From the IMG/VR virus record IMGVR_UViG_3300009553_000030, positions 1 to 50,891 of that record: a stretch of DNA of 50,891 bases; one strand, given 5' to 3'. Both the position numbers and the translations under genes were made by a program. The notes under the pieces were generated by a model that was not told where the DNA came from, made no database searches, and saw only the letters and a program-made list of their open reading frames with translations. This document shows, one piece after another, positions 5,955-50,891 of the stretch (its first letter is position 1; every line of letters begins with the position of its first letter). This DNA comes from a virus.

Positions 5955-6301
5955 AAACGCTCCTTTTGGACCTCACGAACTGGGATTTGTGCCTCGATAG
6001 CTTCGGCGGCATCGCGGTCGCGAGTGATCCATATTCCGTGGCGCAAGACGTGGCCTCGGCATGTAAATTGTTTCGATCAGAATATCTCTACGACCTATCG
6101 ATAGGCGTCCCCTACTTCGAAAGTATCCTTGGTAAACTCCCGCCCATCAACGTCGTCAAAACTCTGATCGCGACCGAAGCCGCGCGGGTGCCAGGGTGTA
6201 ATAATCCGGTGGTATATCTCTCCGCGCTGTCAGGGCGTAACCTGACGGGGCAAGTGCAATTCACCGATAGCAACGGCAGGCAACAGGTGGCGAGCTTCTG
6301 A
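5951..6301 (+). CDS. Baseplate wedge protein (gp25/W-like)
   Basis: A 116-residue protein starting at a GTG that overlaps the spike stop (GTGA). It contains DPYSVAQDVASACKLFRSEY, then LYDLSIGVPYFESILG and a C-terminal beta segment. This matches the small wedge proteins (gp25/W/gp46-like) that sit between spike and gpJ in contractile tail clusters and initiate the sheath-baseplate joint. Its stop overlaps the gpJ start (TGATG). The family call rests on order and on the V.QDV..A....GE-like start. Confidence 0.75.
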   Translation: MKTLLLDLTNWDLCLDSFGGIAVASDPYSVAQDVASACKLFRSEYLYDLSIGVPYFESILGKLPPINVVKTLIATEAARVPGCNNPVVYLSALSGRNLTGQVQFTDSNGRQQVASF

Positions 6302-7701
6302 TGAGCGACACGACCTCAGTCCCGCCGATCGATTTCACTGACCGGGGCTTCGTCGCGCCGTCCGAACCCGCGATCGTCACGGGACTGGATGCCGATTACA
6401 ATGCGGCGTTCGGCGGCGATCTTGATACCGATCCCTCGACGCCAGCCGGGCAACTGATCGCCAGCACGGCGGCGATGCTCGGCGACAATTACGATCAGCA
6501 AACGGCGCTTTTCAACGGCGTGGACCCGGCTTACGCGAGCGGGCGGATGCAGGATGCCATCGCGCGCATCTACTTCCTTGAGCGCAACCCGGCGCAGTCC
6601 ACCGTGATCCAGGTCGATTGCGTCGGCGGCGTGGGCGTCATCATCCCGGTTGGCGCGACCGTGACTGATCAGTCTGGCACGCTCTACATCTGCAATGGCG
6701 CTGGCGTGATCCCCGACACTGGCACGATCACATTGCCGTTCGCCTCGCAAATCCAGGCGCCCTTCCCGGTCCCTGACAGCGTTTCGATCTATCAGACGAT
6801 CCCCGGATGGAACACGGCCACGATAACCTCTGGCGTGGTCGGGAACCTCGCGGAAAGCCGGGCGGCGTTCGAAGCGCGGCGCGAGGCGACGGTGGCGGCG
6901 AATGGGGCCGGATTCCTACCGGCGATCGGCGGGGCAGTCGCCAAGGTTCCGGGTGTGATCGACTATTACGCGACCGAAAATCCCACGGGATCGCCGGTGA
7001 CGATCGGTGGCGTGTCAGTCGCGGCGCACAGTCTCTATGTGGCAGTAGCGGGCGGCGCCGAGGCAGACGTTGCCTACGCGATCTGGACGAAGAAAAATCC
7101 CGGATGCGGATACACGGGCAACACGACCGTGACGGTGGAGGACACCAATTCGGGCTACTCGCCGCCCTTCCCGTCCTACGAGGTCACATTCCAGATCCCC
7201 GACGCGGTTTCGATCTGTTTCTTGGTCACTCTGACGGACAGCCCATCGGTGCCCTCGACGGCGGCGACGCAGATACAGGTAGCGATCCTGGCGGCGTTCA
7301 ACGGGCAGGACGACGGCACGCGGGCGCGCATCGGCTCAACGATCTATGCCAGCCGCTACTACGCCGCCGTGACGCTCCTGGGGGCGTGGGCACAGGTCAT
7401 CTCCATCCTGGTGGGCAGCAATGCCTCGCCGGACGCCTCGACCACAGGGGCGATTGCCGCGACCGCACTGACGGTCAGTAGCGGGACCGGCATCGCCGTT
7501 GGCCAGTTCGTCTTCGGCGCCAGTGTGGCGGCAGGCACGCGCATCGTCAGCGGCTCGGGGACGTCCTGGGTTGTGTCGATCAGCCAGACGGTGGCGAGCG
7601 AGGCCATGACGTTCGTTGGCGCGACCGAATTCGACGTGACCATGGACATTGACGAGATACCGACCCTCGCCGCGGCGGACACTCAGGTGGTGCTCGTATG
7701 A
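6301..7701 (+). CDS. Baseplate J protein (gp47/gp6-like) with extra module
   Basis: The 466-residue protein begins with the gpJ pattern [19 protein letters not shown] and a [18 protein letters not shown] segment, then [20 protein letters not shown] and a central [19 protein letters not shown]. These are baseplate J/gp47 features; the protein builds the outer wedge ring that triggers sheath contraction. Residues about 382-438 hold an added Gly/Thr-rich module ([20 protein letters not shown] and [13 protein letters not shown]) also found in three other virion proteins here. The normal gpJ C-terminus ([11 protein letters not shown]) resumes after it. Confidence 0.9.
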
Positions 7702-8990
7702 GCCATGACAATCCAGGATGGGCCTTCGGTTACGAGCCGCCCGCTTATGAGTGGAACGATTGGTTCGGCCGCAAGCAGGACTGGAGCCCGGTCCTCGATC
7801 AGGTCATCGCCAACAGCGGGGCGTTCGGAGCGACCGGCAACACGGGAGCCACCGGAGCTACGGGAGGCACTGGCGCAACAGGGGCTACCGGGGCCGTTGG
7901 CGCGACGGGATCAACCGGCTCGACCGGTAGCACGGGCAGCACGGGAAGCACGGGATCGACCGGATCTACCGGGGCAACCGGAGCAACGGGCGGGGCGGGG
8001 CAATGGAACGGCGGATCTGTGTCTGCCGTCGGCTCATCCCTCGCAATTCACGACGGATCGACGATCGACCTCGCTCCGGTGCTGGCTCACAACCTGGTCG
8101 GAAACTCATCGGCGATCACCGGCATTCCGGGCGAAGCCAGCCTCTCGCATTTTTTCGATCTGAATTTCGGCACCGTCGGCGGCATGCTGGTCTACCGCCA
8201 GGTTGGCGTGGGCTTCGAGAATTGGGTAGCGCTGCCGCCAGGGACCAACAATCAGGCGCTGGTCATGCAAGGCACGACCGCTGTTGCGTGGGGATCGTCC
8301 GTCGTGGGCGCGACAGGAGCCACGGGGGCAACCGGCGGCACGGGGGCCACAGGCGCGACCGGATCAGCGTCTACCAGCGCGATCATCGTCAATGGCGTTA
8401 CGGCGGGCGGCACGATCATCCTGTTGAATGGTGTGATCCAGAATGTGCCCGCCGCATCTGGATTTACCGCCGTCAATCAAAACAGTGCCACGCTCGCGGA
8501 CAACACCAATGGACCGCTCGTCTGGAAATGCACAACCACGCTCGGATCGGACCAGATCAGCGCGTTTCACAAGGCGGTTCCGGGCGGCAGTTGGACGCTG
8601 ACCATGAACGCCGAATACAGTTATCTGACCGATGGCGTGGACTTCGGCATCGATGACGGGACCAAGGCATGGTTCATCATCATCACGGGCGGCACGACAC
8701 GCTCGTTCATCGTGCAGCGATGGAACTCCTTCACGTCGGCGGTGGGAAGCACGACGGACGTTAATCTGGTCATCCCGCTGCCAAATCCGGTATGGTTGCG
8801 GATCGTTTATGACAGCGCGACGCCTCGAATGACGTTCCAATACAGCATCGACGGGTTTACGTGGATAACGGCGTTCACGACAACCTCTCTGTTCTTAACG
8901 CCCGCGAATTATTTCATCAGCGCTGACATCAATCATTCGACGGCTACCATACCGCAGCAATGGTCCGTTAATCACCTGACGATCGCATAG
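7698..8990 (+). CDS. Collagen-like tail fibre with lectin-like C-terminal domain
   Basis: A 430-residue protein coupled to gpJ by an ATGA overlap. Residues 1-50 ([20 protein letters not shown]) are a likely baseplate-attachment domain. Residues about 51-97 are collagen-like GAT/GST triplets, followed by a Ser/Gly spacer, a second short GAT tract at about 198-214 and a C-terminal domain of about 190 residues. That last domain has the jelly-roll look of a concanavalin-type lectin ([20 protein letters not shown], then [17 protein letters not shown]). It is probably a receptor-binding fibre. The target sugar cannot be read from the sequence. Confidence 0.75.
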
Positions 8991-40333: not shown

Positions 40334-41284
40334 ATGACAGGCTTCCAGACGGCGACGCGCAACCTCCAGGCTCCGGCGTTGGCGGGCGACTTCGCCTCGA
40401 TGAACCCCTATGCGTCGCAGCTTTCGACGCAGATTTACAATTCGACTGGCTTCCGCGCTGGCGCGTCTGGCCTGGTCATCGGCCTGTTCTGTTGGCTTGA
40501 TCCGTCCACTTGGACGTTCGCCAACAACTCGGGATCGGGCAAGCCGCAGGGCTTCGTGGGACGCGGCGGCATGTCTGCGCTGATCACCACTTACCTATCC
40601 GAGGCCGGCGTGACGATCCCAGCCGGGTTCGGCGTAGGCAATATCTATGACGGCGGCGACTTCTGTGTTCGCAATGGCGGGACCACCGAGGCCACGCCGG
40701 GCATGAAAGCCTACGCCAACAACACGACGGGCGTTGCCACCTTCGCGGCGACAGGCGCGCCGACGAACTCATCTTCGTCCACCAGCTCCAGCATCGCGGC
40801 CGGGACCGGCAGTTCCGCACTCAGCACGATCGTTGATAATGTGCTGACCACGGGCGCCTCTGTCACGGGCACGCTCCCTGTCGGCGCGATCCTGTCTGGC
40901 ACAGGCGTCGCCGCCGGCACGCAGATCGTCGCTCAGTTGTCCGGCACGGCGGAAGGCGTCGGCACATATCAGGTCACGCCGCGCGATCAGACCGTCGCCG
41001 CGACCACGATCAGCGCCATGTTCGGTATCTTCACCGCGGGCACTGTCACCGGCACGATCGCGGTTGGCCAGACAGTCAGCGGATCGGGAGGCGGCGGTGT
41101 CGCGGCGGGAACGGTGGTTACCGCGCTCCGCACCGGCACGGGTGGGACAGGCACCTACATCGTCAATCTGACGCAGACGGTGACCTCCAGCACGATCACC
41201 ACGGCATCCAATACGGAAACGGATTGGGAATGCCGATCGTTCGGGCAACCCGGCGATGTCGTTAAAATCCACAAGGCGGCGTAA
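40334..41284 (+). CDS. Structural cement protein (Gp24-like) with two extra modules
   Basis: A 316-residue protein. Its first 135 residues match capsid cement proteins of the Gp24 type: LQAPALAGDFASMNPYASQL, GASGLVIGLFCWLDPSTW, then MSALITTYLSEAGVTIPAGF and GDFCVRNGGTTEATPGMKAY. Such proteins bind the outer capsid to stabilise it. The rest is different: a Ser/Thr spacer, then two tandem copies (about 40815-41015 and 41016-41215) of the module seen in the sheath, tail terminator and baseplate J (GTGVAAGTQIVAQLSGTAEG and TVSGSGGGGVAAGTVV). The modules probably project from the capsid surface. Confidence 0.85.
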   Translation: MTGFQTATRNLQAPALAGDFASMNPYASQLSTQIYNSTGFRAGASGLVIGLFCWLDPSTWTFANNSGSGKPQGFVGRGGMSALITTYLSEAGVTIPAGFGVGNIYDGGDFCVRNGGTTEATPGMKAYANNTTGVATFAATGAPTNSSSSTSSSIAAGTGSSALSTIVDNVLTTGASVTGTLPVGAILSGTGVAAGTQIVAQLSGTAEGVGTYQVTPRDQTVAATTISAMFGIFTAGTVTGTIAVGQTVSGSGGGGVAAGTVVTALRTGTGGTGTYIVNLTQTVTSSTITTASNTETDWECRSFGQPGDVVKIHKAA

Positions 41285-41298
41285 GGGGAACCACGAAC

Positions 41299-42423
41299 AT
41301 GCTGGCACGCAACCCGGAACTGGATGTCCTCGCGCAGCGCGCCGGCATCGTGTTCGACCACGCCATCGACTTCGCCGATCGGATGCCCGGCATCGGTCAC
41401 AACTCTGGCGCCAAACCGACCTTGGACGAGAAGTTCGGGCCGATCGACCAGGCCAAGGTGCGGCTGGCACTCGACGCGATCATGGGGATGGACGCGCCGA
41501 ACTATAACCAGCCCTCCCCGATTACGTCGCCGAACGCCGGCATCCCCGCGTTTCTGACCACGCTGGTTGATCCCAAACTCATCGAGGTGTTGCTTACGCC
41601 TCTGATGTCCGAGGAGATTTACGGCGTCAAGAAAGAGGGCGACTGGACGACGCAGACCGTCATGTTCGCGCTGATCGAACTGACCGGCGAGACGGCTTCA
41701 TACGGCGACTACAACGAAAACGGCATGTCGAATGCCAACGTCAACTGGCCGCAGCGCCAGAGTTTCTTGTGGCAGACCTTCACTCGGTGGGGTGATCTGG
41801 AACTCGACCGGATGGCGCTGGCGCGTGTTGATTGGGCCGCCCGCCTCAATATCAGTTCGGCGAACACGCTTACTCGTTTCGCCAATCTGGTGAATTTCTT
41901 CGGCGTGTCGGGGTTGCAGCTTTACGGCGGCCTCAATGACCCGTCGCTCTCAGCGGCACTCACGCCAGCGACCAAGGCGGCGGGCGGCACATCATGGGCC
42001 AACGCGCTGCCCACGGAAATTCTCGCGGATGTCCAGGCGATGTTCGCCCAACTGCAAACGCAGTCGCCGGGCAACACCACGCGCGCCACGCGCATGACGC
42101 TCGGGATCGATCCGACCTCGGACGTTTACATGGCCAACACCAACGCGTTCGGCCTCACTGCCCAAGAGATGGTCAAGAAGGCGTTCCCCGGCATCACGAT
42201 CAAGACGGCACCGGAATATCTCTCCGGAACCACCTACTCGGCGCAGTTGATCGTTGACGAGTGGTTCGACGGGCAGCGCACATGCGAGACGGCGTTTACC
42301 GAGAAGATGCGGGCGCACCGCATAATCCCCTCGCATTCGTCATTTTCGCAGAAGAAAACGAGTGGAGGATGGGGCACAATCATCTATCGCCCGATCGGCA
42401 TCGCCTCGATGTCGGGGATCTGA
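41299..42423 (+). CDS. Major capsid protein, DUF2184-type HK97 fold
   Basis: A 374-residue protein. YNQPSPITSPNAGIPAFLTT, LVDPKLIEVLLTPLMSEEIY, RQSFLWQTFTRWGDLELDRM and the end GWGTIIYRPIGIASMSGI place it in the DUF2184 capsid family with the HK97 fold. The N-terminal residues about 33-40 read MPGIGHNSG, the same IGHN motif as in an early protein here. Hundreds of copies would form the icosahedral head. Protease (DUF2213) and cement genes lie just upstream, the usual order. Confidence 0.9.
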   Translation: MLARNPELDVLAQRAGIVFDHAIDFADRMPGIGHNSGAKPTLDEKFGPIDQAKVRLALDAIMGMDAPNYNQPSPITSPNAGIPAFLTTLVDPKLIEVLLTPLMSEEIYGVKKEGDWTTQTVMFALIELTGETASYGDYNENGMSNANVNWPQRQSFLWQTFTRWGDLELDRMALARVDWAARLNISSANTLTRFANLVNFFGVSGLQLYGGLNDPSLSAALTPATKAAGGTSWANALPTEILADVQAMFAQLQTQSPGNTTRATRMTLGIDPTSDVYMANTNAFGLTAQEMVKKAFPGITIKTAPEYLSGTTYSAQLIVDEWFDGQRTCETAFTEKMRAHRIIPSHSSFSQKKTSGGWGTIIYRPIGIASMSGI

Positions 42424-42426
42424 TCC

Positions 42427-42876
42427 ATGGCGAGTTCGCCCGTCCTGACAGCCGCCACGCGATCCGTCGGCGAGATGGTGCTGATCGCGTGCAAGCACCC
42501 GAATGGCCTGATCCTGAATCTTGACCGTTACGTCGCCAAGGGCACACAAGGCCAGGTCGATCGCGTCAACGGCAAGGCGACGGTCACGCTCAAGGGATGG
42601 GCGCACAAGATCGGCATCGATCCAGATCCGACCGAGGGCGGATATCGCCTCACGCCAGTTCCGCGCGACTTCTGGGATGCGTGGTTCAAGCTCAACGCCG
42701 AGAGCTCGTTCATCGCGGACAAGATCATCTTGCCGCCGGCGAGCGACGCACAGGGGCAGGCGATCGAACACCGGAGCGTTCCGAAGATGTTCCGGCCCGC
42801 GCATCCCGATGACAAATCGCCTGATCGGGCATCGCCGGGCGTCGAGGTCGGCGAGCGACAGGACAAGGTTGCCTGA
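42427..42876 (+). CDS. Conserved head-region protein, 149 residues
   Basis: The protein reads MASSPVLTAATRSVGEMVLI, then ACKHPNGLILNLDRY and WAHKIGIDPDPTEGGYRLTP, and ends with a polar tail. In this type of genome a protein of this size regularly lies between the major capsid and the DUF4054 adaptor. Its role is not established; head completion or a minor capsid role is possible. Coupled to the next gene by TGATG. Confidence 0.65.
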   Translation: MASSPVLTAATRSVGEMVLIACKHPNGLILNLDRYVAKGTQGQVDRVNGKATVTLKGWAHKIGIDPDPTEGGYRLTPVPRDFWDAWFKLNAESSFIADKIILPPASDAQGQAIEHRSVPKMFRPAHPDDKSPDRASPGVEVGERQDKVA

Positions 42877-43373
42877 TGACCGATGGCGTTGTCACATTCG
42901 ATTATGCGGCGTGGGCACTCCTGTTCCCCACGCTCGCCACGTCGATCGATGAGGACACGGCCACGGCCTATTTCGGTATTGCCGAACTGTATCTGCAAAA
43001 TCAGCCATGGTCCCAGGTCTGCGATCTGACCAAGCGGGCGCTGATCCTCAATCTACTGACCGCGCACATCGCGGTTCTGTTCGGATCGATCAACGGCCAG
43101 CCGCCACAGCCTCTCGTGGGCCGGATCAGCCAGGCAACCGAGGGTAGCGTCTCGGTATCGGTGGACTTCCCCGAAAACCCGAACGCGGCATGGTTCAATC
43201 AGACGCCCTACGGCGCGGCGGCATGGGTCGCGATGGCGCCGTGGCGGACGGCGTTCTACGTGGCCGCACCGCAAATCCCCCTCTCCGCTCAGTCGTGGCC
43301 GGGAGCCGGCGCGGGACCATTCGGGCCGTTTGGCGGGATGCCGTTCAACGGAGGCTTCCCATGGCCACGATGA
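42876..43373 (+). CDS. DUF4054 head-tail adaptor
   Basis: A 165-residue protein. FDYAAWALLFPTLATSIDED, TKRALILNLLTAHIAVLFGS, EGSVSVSVDFPENPNAAWFN and QTPYGAAAWVAMAPWRTAFY are the DUF4054 pattern, a helical adaptor bound to the portal. The C-terminus is a Gly/Pro-rich tail. The stop lies 13 bases inside the next gene (start 43361). Confidence 0.85.
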   Translation: MTDGVVTFDYAAWALLFPTLATSIDEDTATAYFGIAELYLQNQPWSQVCDLTKRALILNLLTAHIAVLFGSINGQPPQPLVGRISQATEGSVSVSVDFPENPNAAWFNQTPYGAAAWVAMAPWRTAFYVAAPQIPLSAQSWPGAGAGPFGPFGGMPFNGGFPWPR

Positions 43374-43948
43374 CCGGTGGGGAGAAACTGCAAGCCTATC
43401 TGCAACAGATCGCCGGGAAACTCGCCAGCGCCGGGACCAATCCGAACGTGCGCGTGGGTTTCCTCGAAGGCGCGACCTATCCCGATGGCACTCCGGTCCC
43501 GCTGATCGCGGCACAAAACGAGTTCGGTGCGACCATTCAACGTCCGGCCGGAACTGTGACCGTCTACCGGAAGACGAACAAGGCCGGAACGCATTTCCTC
43601 CGCAATGGGCGCTTCGTGAAACGCTCCGAGGCTAATTTCTTCAGCACGCACGCGACGGCCGCGCACGCGGTAACGATCCCTCCCCGGCCGTTCTTTCGCC
43701 GCATGATCAAGGCCAAGGGACCGACGTGGGGGCCGGATATCGGAAAGCTTCTGCCAGCCTATAACTACGATGTGGCCAAGGTTCTCACGGCCATGGGCAC
43801 GCTGATCCGAGGCCAGTTGCAGGACAGCATCCTTAATTTCACGACGCCACGGAACGCGCCCGCCACCGTCGCACGCAAGGGTTTCGATCGTCCGCTGATC
43901 GATACGAGCCACATGCTCAATTCGGCGGACTTCGAAGTCTCAACCTAA
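43361..43948 (+). CDS. Neck/tail completion protein (gp10-like)
   Basis: The ATG at 43361 has GGAGG eight bases upstream and gives 195 residues; longer readings run into the adaptor gene. [37 protein letters not shown] and [20 protein letters not shown] follow the pattern of HK97 gp10-like completion proteins (G.L......YPDG..V..VA..NE.G.....PPRPF.R). A loop with [17 protein letters not shown] is an insertion. It joins the connector to the tail. Confidence 0.78.
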
Positions 43949-43959
43949 AGGGAACCGTC

Positions 43960-44322
43960 ATGTCCACTGGCGATACGATCCTCACTGATGTTGGACTTGG
44001 GCCGGTTCCGGCATCCGAGGTCATGATCACTCCGGCCGGTGCGACTGGTGCATCGCAACTCGGCACTGCGTTGGCCAATGCGACCTCGGGAGCGACCGGA
44101 GCTACAGGTGCCACGGGAGCTACGGGTTCAACTGGACCGACCGGTGCCACCGGAGGAACTGGCGCAGCCGGTGCCACCGGCAACACCGGGGCAACCGGAG
44201 CCACCGGGGCGACGTTCACAGCCGGCCAATTCGCCGCGACTGACCTGTCCGGCCTTCCATCCTCTGACCCTGGCGGCGGCCTCCCTTGGCTCAAGGCCGG
44301 TGACTTGCACGTCGGCGCATGA
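43960..44322 (+). CDS. Short collagen-like protein of the neck region
   Basis: A 120-residue protein. The first 42 residues ([20 protein letters not shown], then [17 protein letters not shown]) are followed by about 16 Gly-X-Y triplets ([16 protein letters not shown] and similar) and a tip of 36 residues ([18 protein letters not shown]). Its position, between completion and tail-terminator genes, is where whisker or neck-fibre proteins could sit. It is the third collagen-like gene of the genome. The stop overlaps the next start (ATGA). Confidence 0.75.
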
Positions 44323-44711
44323 ACCTCCACGCCATCGCATCGCCGGCCATTGGCGTCGTCAACCCGCCCGTCTTCTGCACGGTTCGGACCTCGACAGGCT
44401 ATACGGTCGCGGGTGATGGCACTCAGGTTCCGACCTACTCGACGGCAAGCGACGTGCCTGTCCAGGTGCAAGCCCTCGCCTATACCGACCTGATGAAACT
44501 CGGGGCGATGAACATCCAGGGCACGCGCCGCAAGGGTTATTTTTACGGCAACGTGGAGGGCCTTGACCGTGCGGCGATCAAGGGCGGCGATCTGGTGACG
44601 ATGCCAAGTCTGCCGACGTTCCCCGGTCCCACGGTTTGGCTTGTGGCACAGGTGCTTGAGCACTTCGAGGGATGGACTTCAGTCGCTCTCACGTTGCAGG
44701 ACGGATCGTGA
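44319..44711 (+). CDS. Putative neck/tail completion protein, 130 residues
   Basis: An ATGA-coupled gene. It has [36 protein letters not shown], then [20 protein letters not shown] and a C-terminal [20 protein letters not shown]. The beta-rich layout and the place next to the tail terminator fit head-tail joining proteins, but no family name is sure. The next gene starts at GTG 44708, overlapping the stop. Confidence 0.6.
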
Positions 44712-45451
44712 GCGGATCGATCACCCTCACTCAGACCGCGATTTTCACGGCACTCGTGGCCGTGCTTGGGACGTTCGGCCTCACGCCCGCCAGCGGCAGC
44801 GCGGTTCCGATCATCCGCGGTCAGGTCAATCGCGTGCCCGAGCCGGCCGGGAAAGACTTCGTGATCCTCTGGCCGATCGCGCGTGACCGGATCGCGATGA
44901 ACATCGATACGACGCTGGACGTGGAGTGCGTCGGATCGATCACTTCCAACGTCCTCAATGTCACGTCGATCATCACCGGGCCACTGGCGGTGGTGCAGAT
45001 CATCTACGGCATCGGCGTGGCCGTGAACTGTCGGATCGTCGCGCAACTCACGGGATCGCCGGGCGGCATCGGAACCTACTCGACCACGACGACGGCCAAT
45101 GTCGTCTCGAAACATCTCTACTGCGGCACGATTTCGAATATGCAAGAGACGGAAATCACCATCCAGGCCGACGTGCACGGGCCGGCGAGCGCGGACAACG
45201 CGCAGCGGCTTTCGACCCTGTTCCGAGATCAGTTCGCCGTCGATGCATTCCAAACGCAGGGATTGCCGATCACGCCGCTCTACACGTCCGAACCGCGGCA
45301 AATCCCGTTCGAAAACGGCGAGCAACAGACCGAAGAACGATGGGTTGTCGATCTCTGTATGCAGGCGGACGTCGCCATTGTGACCACGATGCAGTTCGCC
45401 GATAAGTTGGACATCACGACGACGCCCGTCGAAACTCTGCCGATCATTTAG
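44708..45451 (+). CDS. Tail terminator (neck) protein with inserted module
   Basis: The GTG at 44708 gives 247 residues. SAVPIIRGQVNRVPEPAGKD and FVILWPIARDRIAMN at the front with TEITIQADVHGPASADNAQR and LSTLFRDQFAVDAF later match the neck terminator family (gp12-like, LIC_12616 type), which caps the tail tube and sheath. Between residues about 75 and 139 the chain is interrupted by one copy of the Gly/Thr module (TSNVLNVTSIITGPLAVVQI, then IVAQLTGSPGGIGTYST). The module's exact boundary inside the fold makes it look like a neat insertion. Confidence 0.82.
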   Translation: MSGSITLTQTAIFTALVAVLGTFGLTPASGSAVPIIRGQVNRVPEPAGKDFVILWPIARDRIAMNIDTTLDVECVGSITSNVLNVTSIITGPLAVVQIIYGIGVAVNCRIVAQLTGSPGGIGTYSTTTTANVVSKHLYCGTISNMQETEITIQADVHGPASADNAQRLSTLFRDQFAVDAFQTQGLPITPLYTSEPRQIPFENGEQQTEERWVVDLCMQADVAIVTTMQFADKLDITTTPVETLPII

Positions 45452-45460
45452 GAGCCGATC

Positions 45461-47455
45461 ATGTCCGCGACAATCAGCAGCATCCCGGCATCCTACTACG
45501 TCAACGTCGTCCCTGGCGTGATCGACGCTGGCGCGGCCGGACTGTCTCTGACCGAACTGATGCTGACCACCAGCACGCGGCCGCCGATTGGCGCGGTGCT
45601 CTCATTCCCGAACCTCGCGGCGGTCAAGTCGTATTTCGGCAACACGAGTGATGAGGCCGTGGAGGCAACGGTCTATTTCGGCGGCTACAATCTGGCGACG
45701 ATCCAGCCGGGCATGTTGATGTTTGCCCAATATCCGCTGGACGACGTTGGGGCCTATCTCCGGGGCGGCGACGTTTCGACGCTGACCCTCACGCAGCTCC
45801 AGGCGCTTTCCGGAACGATCATCGTGACGATCGACGGCACGCCGCACACATCGGCGACGATCGACCTCTCGACGGCAACGAGTTTCACGAACGCCTCGCA
45901 GTTGATCGCTGACGGACTGGTGGGGCTGGTGGGGCCGACGCAGGCCACGTTCACGGCATCGGTTGGCGCGACCGCCACCGGCACCGGGACAGGCACCAGT
46001 CTCGTGCTTAGTCCCGTGGTTGGCGTCATCCATCCAGGCACGGCGCTCAAGGCCACCATCACGGGAACGGGCATCCCGGCGAACACCTACATCGTCTCAC
46101 AATCCACCGGTTCGGCGGGCGGCGCTGGCACCTACATCACCAATCAGGCCACGACGGCATCGAGCGCGGCGATCACGGTGACGAGCAACGTGCTCGACGT
46201 GACGGCGGTCGCAACCGGCGCGTTGGCGGTCGGACAGGAAGTCGTCGGCACGGGGATCAGCGACAATTTCATCGCGGCACAACTGACCGGGACCGCCGGC
46301 GCGGCTGGCACTTACACGATCACCACGGGCGATCAGCAGGCGTCCGAGAGTATGTCTGGCGTCATGCCCATCGTCACATATGATAGCCAGTCAGGCGGCT
46401 TTGTGATCGTGTCCTCAACCACGGGGGCATCGTCCACCATCGGATTCGCATCGGGCACGCTAGCCGCTGGCGTTCTCCTGACCTCGGCCACTGGCGCGGT
46501 CACATCGCAGGGCGCGGATGCGGCGGTTCCTGGCGATTTCATGGACGATATCGTCGCTCAGACCGTCAACTTCGCGACGTTCCAGACGATCTTCGATCCC
46601 GACGAAGGTTCAGGCAACACGCAAAAGTTGCTCTTTTCGGCATGGGTCAATTCGACCGATGACCAATACGTCTACCTCTGCACTGATACCGACATCACGT
46701 CGACGGAAAGCGACGATGCCGCATCGAGCATGGGGCAAATCCTCAAGGGCCTGGACAGCTCGGGCACGGTGCTGATTTACGAACCGGTGGACGGCAACAA
46801 TCATCTGGCGGCGTTCGCGGGAGGCTATGCGGCATCCGTCAACTTCAACGCCACCAACGGACGCGCGACGGCGGATTACAAGAGCCAATCCGGCCTTTCG
46901 CCAAGCGTTACGAGCGTCCTGGCCAAGTCGAACCTCATCGCCAATGGCTACAACTCCTACGATGGCGTGGCGAACCGCGGCGCGTCCTGGCAGTTTTTCG
47001 ACAACGGATCGATCACCGGTCCATTCACCTGGTTCGATACGTATATCAACCAAATCTGGCTCAACAATCAGTGCCAGAACGCGTTGATGCAGTTGCTCAC
47101 GACGCTCGGCCGGATCCCATACAATCCGGCCGGATACGGCATGATCCGGCAGACCCTCACAGGCGGCGCGGATGGTTCGAAGGTGACGTTACCGCCCGCC
47201 TCTCCTGTCGCCGCTGGTCTCAACAATGGCGTCATCACGCCGAACGTGCCGCTGTCCTCGGTGCAAGCGATTGAGGTCAACACGCTGGCCGGGTTCAAGA
47301 TCGATGATATCCTGTCCTCGCAGGGCTACTACCTGATCATCCAGCCCGCGACGGCGCAGGTCCGGCAGGCGCGCAATTCGCCGACGATCATCCTGTTATA
47401 TTGCGACGGCGGATCGATCCAAAGGATAAACCTATCCTCTTTCGTGGTCCTTTGA
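45461..47455 (+). CDS. Contractile tail sheath protein, DUF3383 family
   Basis: A 664-residue protein. [60 protein letters not shown] and later [20 protein letters not shown] with a C-terminal [17 protein letters not shown] are DUF3383 sheath features. Between residues about 165 and 300 two tandem copies of the Gly/Thr module are inserted ([20 protein letters not shown] and [20 protein letters not shown]), probably facing the outside. The HNH gene follows in a TGATG overlap at its stop. Confidence 0.88.
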
Positions 47456-48012
47456 TGCAGTCACAATCTGAAAGAAACCGGGCTTATTATGCTGCCAACC
47501 GAGAGGCGATGAAGGCTCGCGGTCGCGCGTATCGAGCGGCCAATCCAGAGAAACATAAGGCAGCTACTACGGCATGGCGAGCCGCCAACAAGGAGCGGTT
47601 CGCCGAGGTAAAGCGTCAATACCGGGCAGACAATCCGGAGAAAGTGCGCGAGGCTCGCCGCCTTGCGTATTTGACAAAAGGAGAGGCGGAACGATCTGCG
47701 GCGCGCGCGTGGAAGCGACAGAACGCCGCCAAAGTGATTGCTGATATGGCCAAGCGAACTGCGCTTAAAAAGAAAGCCGTGCCAGTCTGGGCCAACATGA
47801 CCGTGATCAAGGATGTTTATCGGCAGGCCAGAGAATTGACGATCGCTACCGGCATCAAACATCACGTCGATCACATCGTGCCGCTGAAGTCAGATATCGT
47901 TTGTGGCCTTCATTGCGAGGCCAATTTACAAATCCTCACGGCGTTCGACAACCAATCCAAAAAGAACAGATGGTGGCCTGACATGCCCGCGCAAACAGGA
48001 GTGCCCACATGA
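47455..48012 (+). CDS. HNH homing endonuclease between sheath and tube genes
   Basis: The ATG at 47455 shares a base with the sheath stop and gives 185 residues; a TTG at 47401 is an unlikely extension. Residues 1-95 are made of short basic repeats (RAYRAANPEKHKAATTAWRA, then RQYRADNPEKVREARRLAY), a DNA-binding helix array common in phage HNH proteins. Residues about 140-180 are the nuclease: HHVDHIVPLKSDIVCGLHCE, then NLQILTAFDNQSKKNR. It is a freestanding homing nuclease, moderately A/T-rich. The downstream tube gene starts in its stop (ATGA). Confidence 0.9.
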   Translation: MQSQSERNRAYYAANREAMKARGRAYRAANPEKHKAATTAWRAANKERFAEVKRQYRADNPEKVREARRLAYLTKGEAERSAARAWKRQNAAKVIADMAKRTALKKKAVPVWANMTVIKDVYRQARELTIATGIKHHVDHIVPLKSDIVCGLHCEANLQILTAFDNQSKKNRWWPDMPAQTGVPT

Positions 48013-49096: not shown

Positions 49097-50891
49097 GTGC
49101 CGACCGTGATCGATTCTCTTGTCGTCAGCCTCGGCCTCGACGCATCGCAGTTTACCGCTGGCCAGAAAACCGCGATCGAGAGCCTACGTCAGACTGAAGG
49201 TGCAGCCGCGCGCACGGCCAAGTCCTTGCAGTCCGATGGCGCGAAGGCGGCAGAGTTCTTCTCATCGATCAAAACGCAGGCGTTAAGTCTGTTCGCTGTC
49301 CTGATGGGCGGCAAGGGCGTTGTCTCAGTCGTTGGCGACATGACGCGCGGCCTCGCGGAGTTCGGTCGCACCGTAGGCATGATCGGTTCCGATCCGCAGA
49401 TGATCCAGGCCTTCGAGGCTGCCATCGCGCGCATGGGCGGCACGATCGGCAATGCCCACACGTCGCTGCTTGGCCTGGCCAAGGCACGGCAAGAATGGAT
49501 CACGATGGGCCAGGGCGCCTCGAGCGCTGCCTTCATGGGCATGGTGGGGGCGGCGCCGACTGACGACCCCATAACGATCATGGGCAAGTTCTCGGCCTAC
49601 ATAAAAGCCAACATCGGGCGGCCCGGCGCGGAGTCGGACATCCGCCAAAAGGGCGAAGGCATCGGGATCGACTTCAACACGATCACGGCCATGATCCAGA
49701 TGGCCAGGACTTCGAACTTCAACGCCGAGATGCAACGATCCTTCGAACTCAACGCGGTTGCGTCAAAACAACAGATCGAGGCGGCGACGCGATTCCAGAC
49801 TGCCACCACGGCATTTCAACAGGCGATCGAAGGGTTCGTGCGAGCGCTGATCCCGTGGGAGGCGATGGCTAAGGCGATCGAGGAACTGACCGATCGCATC
49901 ATCCATCCCGAGAAAAACCAGGCCGAGGTTGATCGTCTCAAGGCCGAACTGACAAGGCGAGGTCATCCGTTCGGGGATCGGAAAGAAGAGATCATCCCCG
50001 GCGCGCGGGAGTGGATCGACAGGCAATGGCAAAGGTGGTTCGGGGGCGGCGAGAAGAAACCGCTACCGGGACCGCGCGCCAGTGCCGAACCTGCAGCACC
50101 CTATCAGGCTGGCGACATTCTCAACCGCATGGGCATTTCGCAGGGCCAATACGACACGACCAAAAACGCCATCGCGCAAATTGAGCGAGCCAGTTACGGC
50201 CAGATGGGCGGCTCAAGTGGACGCTTCGCCGGTCGATACCAGATGGGTGCCGCGGAGATACGCGAGACGGCGCAACGCCTCGGAGAACCCGCCCCCACAC
50301 AGGCGCAATTCCTCGCCGATCCCGCCATGCAAGAGCGTTTCATGGAGGCATACACGGCGGGGCACCATGAACAACTGATGGCGCAGAGTGCCCGCTACCG
50401 CGCCATGTCGCCGAATGAACGTCTCGCGGTTCTGGGGTATGCCCACAATCAAGGCGTTGGCGGCGCGTCGCGCTGGCTGGAAACGGGCGTCGCCGGAAGG
50501 GATGCGTTCAACACAAGCGGCACTGCATATTCCGATGCGATCCGGTCACGTCTGAACAGTCCCGGCATGGCCAGTCGGGCCTACGATAGCGTCGTGGACA
50601 AAGCCAGAGAGGCGCGTCGTGCGCTGCTGCGAGCACAGGGACTTGATCCCGACGCCCCCGGCGCCGGCTACAAAACCCTCTCCCGCGATCAACTGGAACT
50701 GCCGCCCGGTGCCGTCACGCCTGGACAGGTGCGTCCGCTCAACCCGAACGCAGGCCCGCGCGTGTCAAACGACAATTCGACCGCCGTGCAAATCGACAGC
50801 CTCAACGTGCATACGCAGGCGACAGACGCGAAGGGCATCTCTCGGGACATCAACCGCACGCTGTCCGATGAAATCGCCGCGCAGTCAGCCC
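49097..50891 (+). CDS. Tape measure protein with transglycosylase-like domain, 3'-truncated
   Basis: The GTG at 49097 follows GGAGGA and gives 598 visible residues before the window ends. The first 280 residues are the helical tape (DSLVVSLGLDASQFTAGQKT, then a membrane-like stretch near 60-75). Residues about 350-490 resemble a muralytic domain: GGSSGRFAGRYQMGAAEIRE and LAVLGYAHNQGVGGASRWLE, similar to lytic transglycosylase domains fused to tape measures. No other cell-wall enzyme was found in the window. The frame is in register with the first gene of the window if the genome is circular. Confidence 0.85.
   Translation, partial: MPTVIDSLVVSLGLDASQFTAGQKTAIESLRQTEGAAARTAKSLQSDGAKAAEFFSSIKTQALSLFAVLMGGKGVVSVVGDMTRGLAEFGRTVGMIGSDPQMIQAFEAAIARMGGTIGNAHTSLLGLAKARQEWITMGQGASSAAFMGMVGAAPTDDPITIMGKFSAYIKANIGRPGAESDIRQKGEGIGIDFNTITAMIQMARTSNFNAEMQRSFELNAVASKQQIEAATRFQTATTAFQQAIEGFVRALIPWEAMAKAIEELTDRIIHPEKNQAEVDRLKAELTRRGHPFGDRKEEIIPGAREWIDRQWQRWFGGGEKKPLPGPRASAEPAAPYQAGDILNRMGISQGQYDTTKNAIAQIERASYGQMGGSSGRFAGRYQMGAAEIRETAQRLGEPAPTQAQFLADPAMQERFMEAYTAGHHEQLMAQSARYRAMSPNERLAVLGYAHNQGVGGASRWLETGVAGRDAFNTSGTAYSDAIRSRLNSPGMASRAYDSVVDKAREARRALLRAQGLDPDAPGAGYKTLSRDQLELPPGAVTPGQVRPLNPNAGPRVSNDNSTAVQIDSLNVHTQATDAKGISRDINRTLSDEIAAQSA

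Follow-up and report, generated by a model that had tools for sequence, protein, structure and literature searches.

One small all-beta domain recurs in the capsid cement, tail terminator, sheath and baseplate proteins of a phage genome

Introduction

Why should one and the same small domain appear in the head, neck, sheath and baseplate proteins of a single phage particle? The accessory domains of phage particles tend to be treated protein by protein, and the question is raised here by an environmental phage, an entire IMG/VR virus record, IMGVR_UViG_3300009553_000030, whose full stretch of 50,891 nt is referred to as the window. A sequence-only reading had noticed a domain of about 60 residues six times in four of its virion proteins, and had taken it for a shuffled module. 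Our analysis shows that all six are copies of a single nearly uncharged all-beta domain, which folds by itself, has about 61 residues and is inserted in the loops or at the ends of these proteins. The case matters because a single particle has one domain family without a Pfam or NCBIfam model in its head, neck, sheath and baseplate, and has it in a layout that recurs.

The record is apparently a circular genome cut within a tape-measure-like gene, since the tape-measure-like ORF that runs off the right end (49097-50891) is continued in frame by the one that runs in from the left end (1-635), and both parts are matched by relatives. The joined frame consists of 598 codons, one split codon and about 210 codons. 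Residues 343-490 of the tape-measure-like protein (49097-50890) match the endolysin family PHROG 5867, a resemblance which suggests an integral cell-wall lytic domain.

Six copies of the module in four virion proteins

All six positions were recovered and their coordinates refined. Since a profile made of the six copies themselves would be circular, ours was derived from 209 copies that lie outside the window and was searched against the 1,013 six-frame ORFs of the window. It found six domains, in four ORFs only, with E-values from 7.7e-6 to 7e-14, and so the six copies belong to one family by a profile to which the window did not contribute. None of the 1,213 shuffled or reversed control sequences matched this profile at E<=10, which rules out low complexity or chance resemblance as the source of the copies. 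The six copies share 29-55% pairwise identity. The module has no Pfam match at E<=10, and PDB sequence searches with six-copy and 80-copy profiles gave insignificant matches only.

The four carriers are all encoded on the plus strand. The capsid cement or decoration protein (40334..41284, 316 aa) belongs to the XM1 gp53 family, as it matches the XM1 gp53 minor capsid model PF23982 (1.9e-16) and PHROG 2122. Its N-terminal part can be aligned to module-free homologues and its C-terminal half holds copy 1 (40820..41020, E 1.4e-13) and copy 2 (41009..41215, E 7.4e-13). The tail (neck) terminator (44672..45451, 259 aa; PF23961, 2.2e-18) has copy 3 inserted (44927..45124, E 7e-14), and a collagen-like GXX repeat protein is encoded at 43960-44322 in the neck gene cluster. 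The tail sheath (45461..47455, 664 aa; PF11863, 4.1e-103) holds a tandem pair, copy 4 (45980..46183, E 7.7e-6) and copy 5 (46169..46363, E 2.2e-11); its body is a homologue of the DUF3383-type sheaths (E217 gp31, XM1 gp6), as confirmed by both sequence and fold against E217 and Pa193. The sheath gene is followed by an HNH or endonuclease VII-like gene (47401-48012), possibly a homing-type insertion, before the next gene for a virion protein. The baseplate J-like wedge protein (6301..7701, 466 aa) was assigned from PHROG 6 (6e-43), its PF04865 score being under the model's own cutoff, and it has copy 6 close to the C-terminus (7441..7617, E 1.3e-8). A second collagen-like GXX repeat protein is encoded immediately 3' of it (7698-8990).

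Fold, insertion sites and predicted exposure

We predicted the structure of module copy 1 by AF2 with an 80-row family alignment. The model is a compact all-beta fold with pLDDT 94.9 and pTM 0.81, indicating an independently folding domain as far as this one modelled copy represents the family. Its best fold match in the PDB is weak, namely chain 1 of 8eci from Arthrobacter phage Bridgette (prob 0.97, E 0.18, TM 0.65).

That the module interrupts known folds, as had been suggested, is shown by alignments with module-free relatives. Homologues of the sheath, terminator, cement and J proteins in the Pseudomonas phages Amjad_SA and E217 do not have the module, and the insertions are clean. The sheath is 664 aa here versus 495 aa in Amjad_SA, the terminator 259 versus 168 aa with the insert absent, the cement 316 versus 168 aa, and the baseplate J protein 466 versus 404 aa, again with the insert absent. 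About 75-78% of our sheath is aligned by the sheaths of cultured relatives among the matches listed. In other phages the J protein carries its insert at a different site or at two sites (loci L005 and L010), and the head-completion protein carries one module in some phages (loci L006, L008 and L009).

The AF2 model of the sheath (pLDDT 75.8, pTM 0.71) places the modules at residues 162-301, flanked by a helix (142-153) and a strand (304-308), and its top PDB matches are the E217, Pa193 and XM1 particles. The XM1 sheath has an insertion domain with a horizontal orientation while the tail is extended (PMC10457771), and further domains of sheaths sit apart from the part contacting the tube (PMC9230969). 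Reading from the alignment, we infer that the sheath modules are located in this XM1-type insertion domain. The capsid surface of XM1 is decorated by trimers of gp53, whose C-terminal part (95-160) serves mainly for trimerization (PMC10457771). The insertion sites coincide with parts reported to face outward in XM1- and E217-type particles, as judged from the structures of the homologues, and in agreement with these structures the modules would lie on the exterior of the capsid, neck, sheath and baseplate. Since the cement and sheath proteins would be present in hundreds of copies by the stoichiometry of XM1 and E217, a virion may display about a thousand modules.

Distribution of the module

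A strict DNA pattern for the module retrieved at least 120 stretches in IMG/VR, and when a profile was iterated over the loci retrieved, the total came to 215 copies, which lie in 170 ORFs from 129 loci, with the window among them. After masking the modules, the carriers form 17 groups with three or more members, the remainder being singletons. PHROG annotations of the carrier representatives include P22-type head closure Hc3, connector, major head protein, tail fibre and collar, baseplate wedge, virion structural protein and amidase, while BFVD fold matches add an HK97 major capsid protein, a P22 gp10-like protein and Indivirus collagen-repeat proteins. The proposal of a shuffled module thus holds, as the same domain is found across many unrelated phage proteins. 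The sequence-only reading had also called the presence of the module along one particle unusual. Its mere presence is not, because it occurs in many unrelated virion proteins and is very common in uncultured phages; what stands is that the layout from head and neck to sheath and baseplate belongs to a group of related phages.

The module also lies inside two long multi-domain families, PHROG 21413 (unknown function) and PHROG 38233 (tail fibre), at profile positions of about 400-465 and 555-625, where the module itself is not annotated. A profile for the module would annotate parts of many unknown virion proteins. Searches of cultured phages with isolated modules (tblastn, blastn) gave no match, but the Gly/Thr-rich queries were probably masked by the low-complexity filter, and hence this result does not speak for an absence from cultured phages. 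With the structural region as the query, megablast also brought up no close relative among cultured phages.

In cellular genomes the module is rare: among those of one phylum it is present in 2 of 299, one being the query's own genome and the other having it in a baseplate J protein. In the genomes holding sheath loci, matches were found in 11 of 15, nearly all of them on the contig of the sheath prophage. A rare non-virion carrier is a 975-residue cellular protein of a proteobacterial MAG (locus L244, 6871-9795), perhaps a PilX-like pilus protein, whose PilX_N match (E 0.096) falls short of the cutoff.

A recurring layout

The window shares its layout of two modules in the cement, one in the terminator, two in the sheath and one in J with a Rhodopila MAG contig and with Mesorhizobium prophages. 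The Rhodopila contig (52.7 kb, recovered as L166 and L247) has six module matches and is the closest relative with a named bin, which hints at an Acetobacteraceae host for the phage of the window. Mesorhizobium prophages that have the full layout, e.g. in strains WSM3860 and WSM3862, could open the function to deletion experiments, provided that they are inducible.

The cement, terminator and sheath are all complete in 74 loci, of which 11 have the 2/1/2 arrangement and 40 have no module in any of these three proteins. Among 86 loci with distinct capsid proteins, the module is carried by 34 of 79 cement proteins, 29 of 84 terminators, 29 of 81 sheaths and 22 of 50 J proteins; the major capsid protein, the hub and gp42427 have no module in any surveyed locus. 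The raw co-occurrence among the four carrier proteins is strong (Fisher 4e-8 to 5e-11). A paired test on the capsid-protein tree found no significant co-occurrence beyond kinship because there are too few independent changes, with 6-9 per trait, and on this tree the carrier pairs almost never change in opposite directions. The recurrence of the six-copy pattern in related phages suggests that the module is probably an accessory surface decoration and not essential machinery.

Descent, selection and composition

In distant phages, copies that share a site are 50.7% identical versus 45.1% for copies in different proteins, and the latter are 45.1% identical within one genome versus 45.2% between phages. 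Some copies of the window are nearest to copies in other proteins, e.g. cement copy 2 to the sheath copy of a Rhizobium prophage (74%). These identities fit an old insertion that was passed on mainly by vertical descent, with some transfer from one protein to another. A recent burst inside one genome is ruled out, as within-genome copies are no more similar to each other.

The pN/pS ratios are 0.26-0.44 for the modules versus 0.20-0.38 for the carrier bodies, indicating purifying selection, and the possibility of a decaying insert is ruled out by these values. Charged residues make up 2.2% of the modules retrieved by the pattern and 3.4% of a set retrieved mostly via the sheath or capsid gene, versus 9-19% in the carrier bodies and the capsid protein. 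Cys is nearly absent from the modules and Trp is at about 0.1%. The conserved columns are Gly, Thr, Ser, one Tyr and aliphatic residues, for which our reading is a structural one.

Possible roles

What can be said most safely is that the module is an ornament domain which folds by itself, is accessory and mobile, and evolves under purifying selection. Our leading reading, which we hold tentatively, goes one step further, i.e. that it is an outward ornament with a weak multivalent effect on the contact of the particle with its surroundings. Modules on the outside of the capsid, neck, sheath and baseplate would act through their copy number, making weak multivalent contact with the host surface, biofilm or soil polymers via polar but uncharged surfaces and not via a specific lectin pocket. 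Precedents are offered by the 936 phages, which have CBMs on the neck and on the major tail protein (PMC6669499), and by the Ig-like domains of Hoc (PMC10385173). We put this reading first, followed by a tolerated passenger, a particle stabilizer and, last, a specific lectin. A bolder version, in which the modules form an ornament system of the whole virion whose uniform, neutral, Thr/Ser/Gly-rich surface tunes contact with the soil or biofilm matrix instead of binding specifically, strikes us as rather unlikely.

An alternative hypothesis could be that the module is a compact domain tolerating insertion into surface loops, which recombination has spread among phage genes with little benefit to the phage. 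This would account for the very many unrelated carriers, annotated as tail fibre, baseplate, head, connector and lysis proteins, for the equal identity within and between genomes, for window copies with their nearest match in another protein, and for the many sibling phages without any copy. However, purifying selection on the modules is near that on the carrier bodies, same-site copies in distant phages are the more similar ones, and the layout is kept across related lineages; hence we regard a mere passenger as possible though unlikely.

The modules could also contact neighbouring subunits in the cement trimers, sheath rings and neck and so reinforce the particle. The cement, sheath and terminator as carriers, together with the head-completion protein and P22 gp10-like head-closure proteins elsewhere, are in line with such a stabilizer, and stabilization by a sheath domain has been proposed for phage 812 (PMC9230969). 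The weak PDB match is to a 124-residue chain of Bridgette, and dimeric capsid cement proteins, of which that chain is a candidate, are reported for this phage. Against this, every site has module-free homologues, column statistics found no conserved charged or aromatic interface, and the domain is also present in fibres and collagen-repeat proteins, which makes stabilization quite doubtful in our opinion.

It had been suggested earlier that the modules could bind glycans all along the virion, as a specific lectin or CBM would, and this has functional precedents in 936 phages (PMC6669499) and T4 Hoc (PMC10385173). The suggestion did not gain support and seems improbable, since the module has near-zero charge (2-3% charged residues), almost no Trp and no conserved aromatic site beyond the structural Tyr of the GTY motif, and neither Pfam at E<=10 nor the fold matches returned a CBM.

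Comparison with known systems

The virion as a whole is similar to the XM1- and E217-like myoviruses in that its cement, terminator, sheath and J proteins come from the same families, whereas E217 and other relatives do not have the module at these sites. The module itself resembles both the Ig-like domains and the CBMs of phages in being accessory and exchanged, but it could be placed in neither class: besides the missing Pfam match, no Ig-like entry is among the PDB and BFVD matches listed, and the column statistics gave no conserved aromatic or polar binding site.

Like the Ig-like domains on the virion of T4, those of Hoc (PMC10385173), the module is a small, accessory beta domain. Ig-like domains are also exchanged among unrelated virion proteins, tail sheaths included, according to Fraser et al. 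2006 as cited in PMC9230969 and PMC10684548. In contrast to them, the module is shorter, Gly/Thr-rich and nearly uncharged, and Ig-like structures do not stand out among its matches. The CBMs of the lactococcal 936 phages (PMC6669499) offer a parallel in another respect, as they are accessory modules in the neck, the major tail protein and Dit of one particle. Two of them were shown to bind host cells, whereas the module here has neither a CBM match nor an aromatic site; and while the 936 phages carry their CBMs on the neck and tail, here a single family extends from the capsid to the baseplate.
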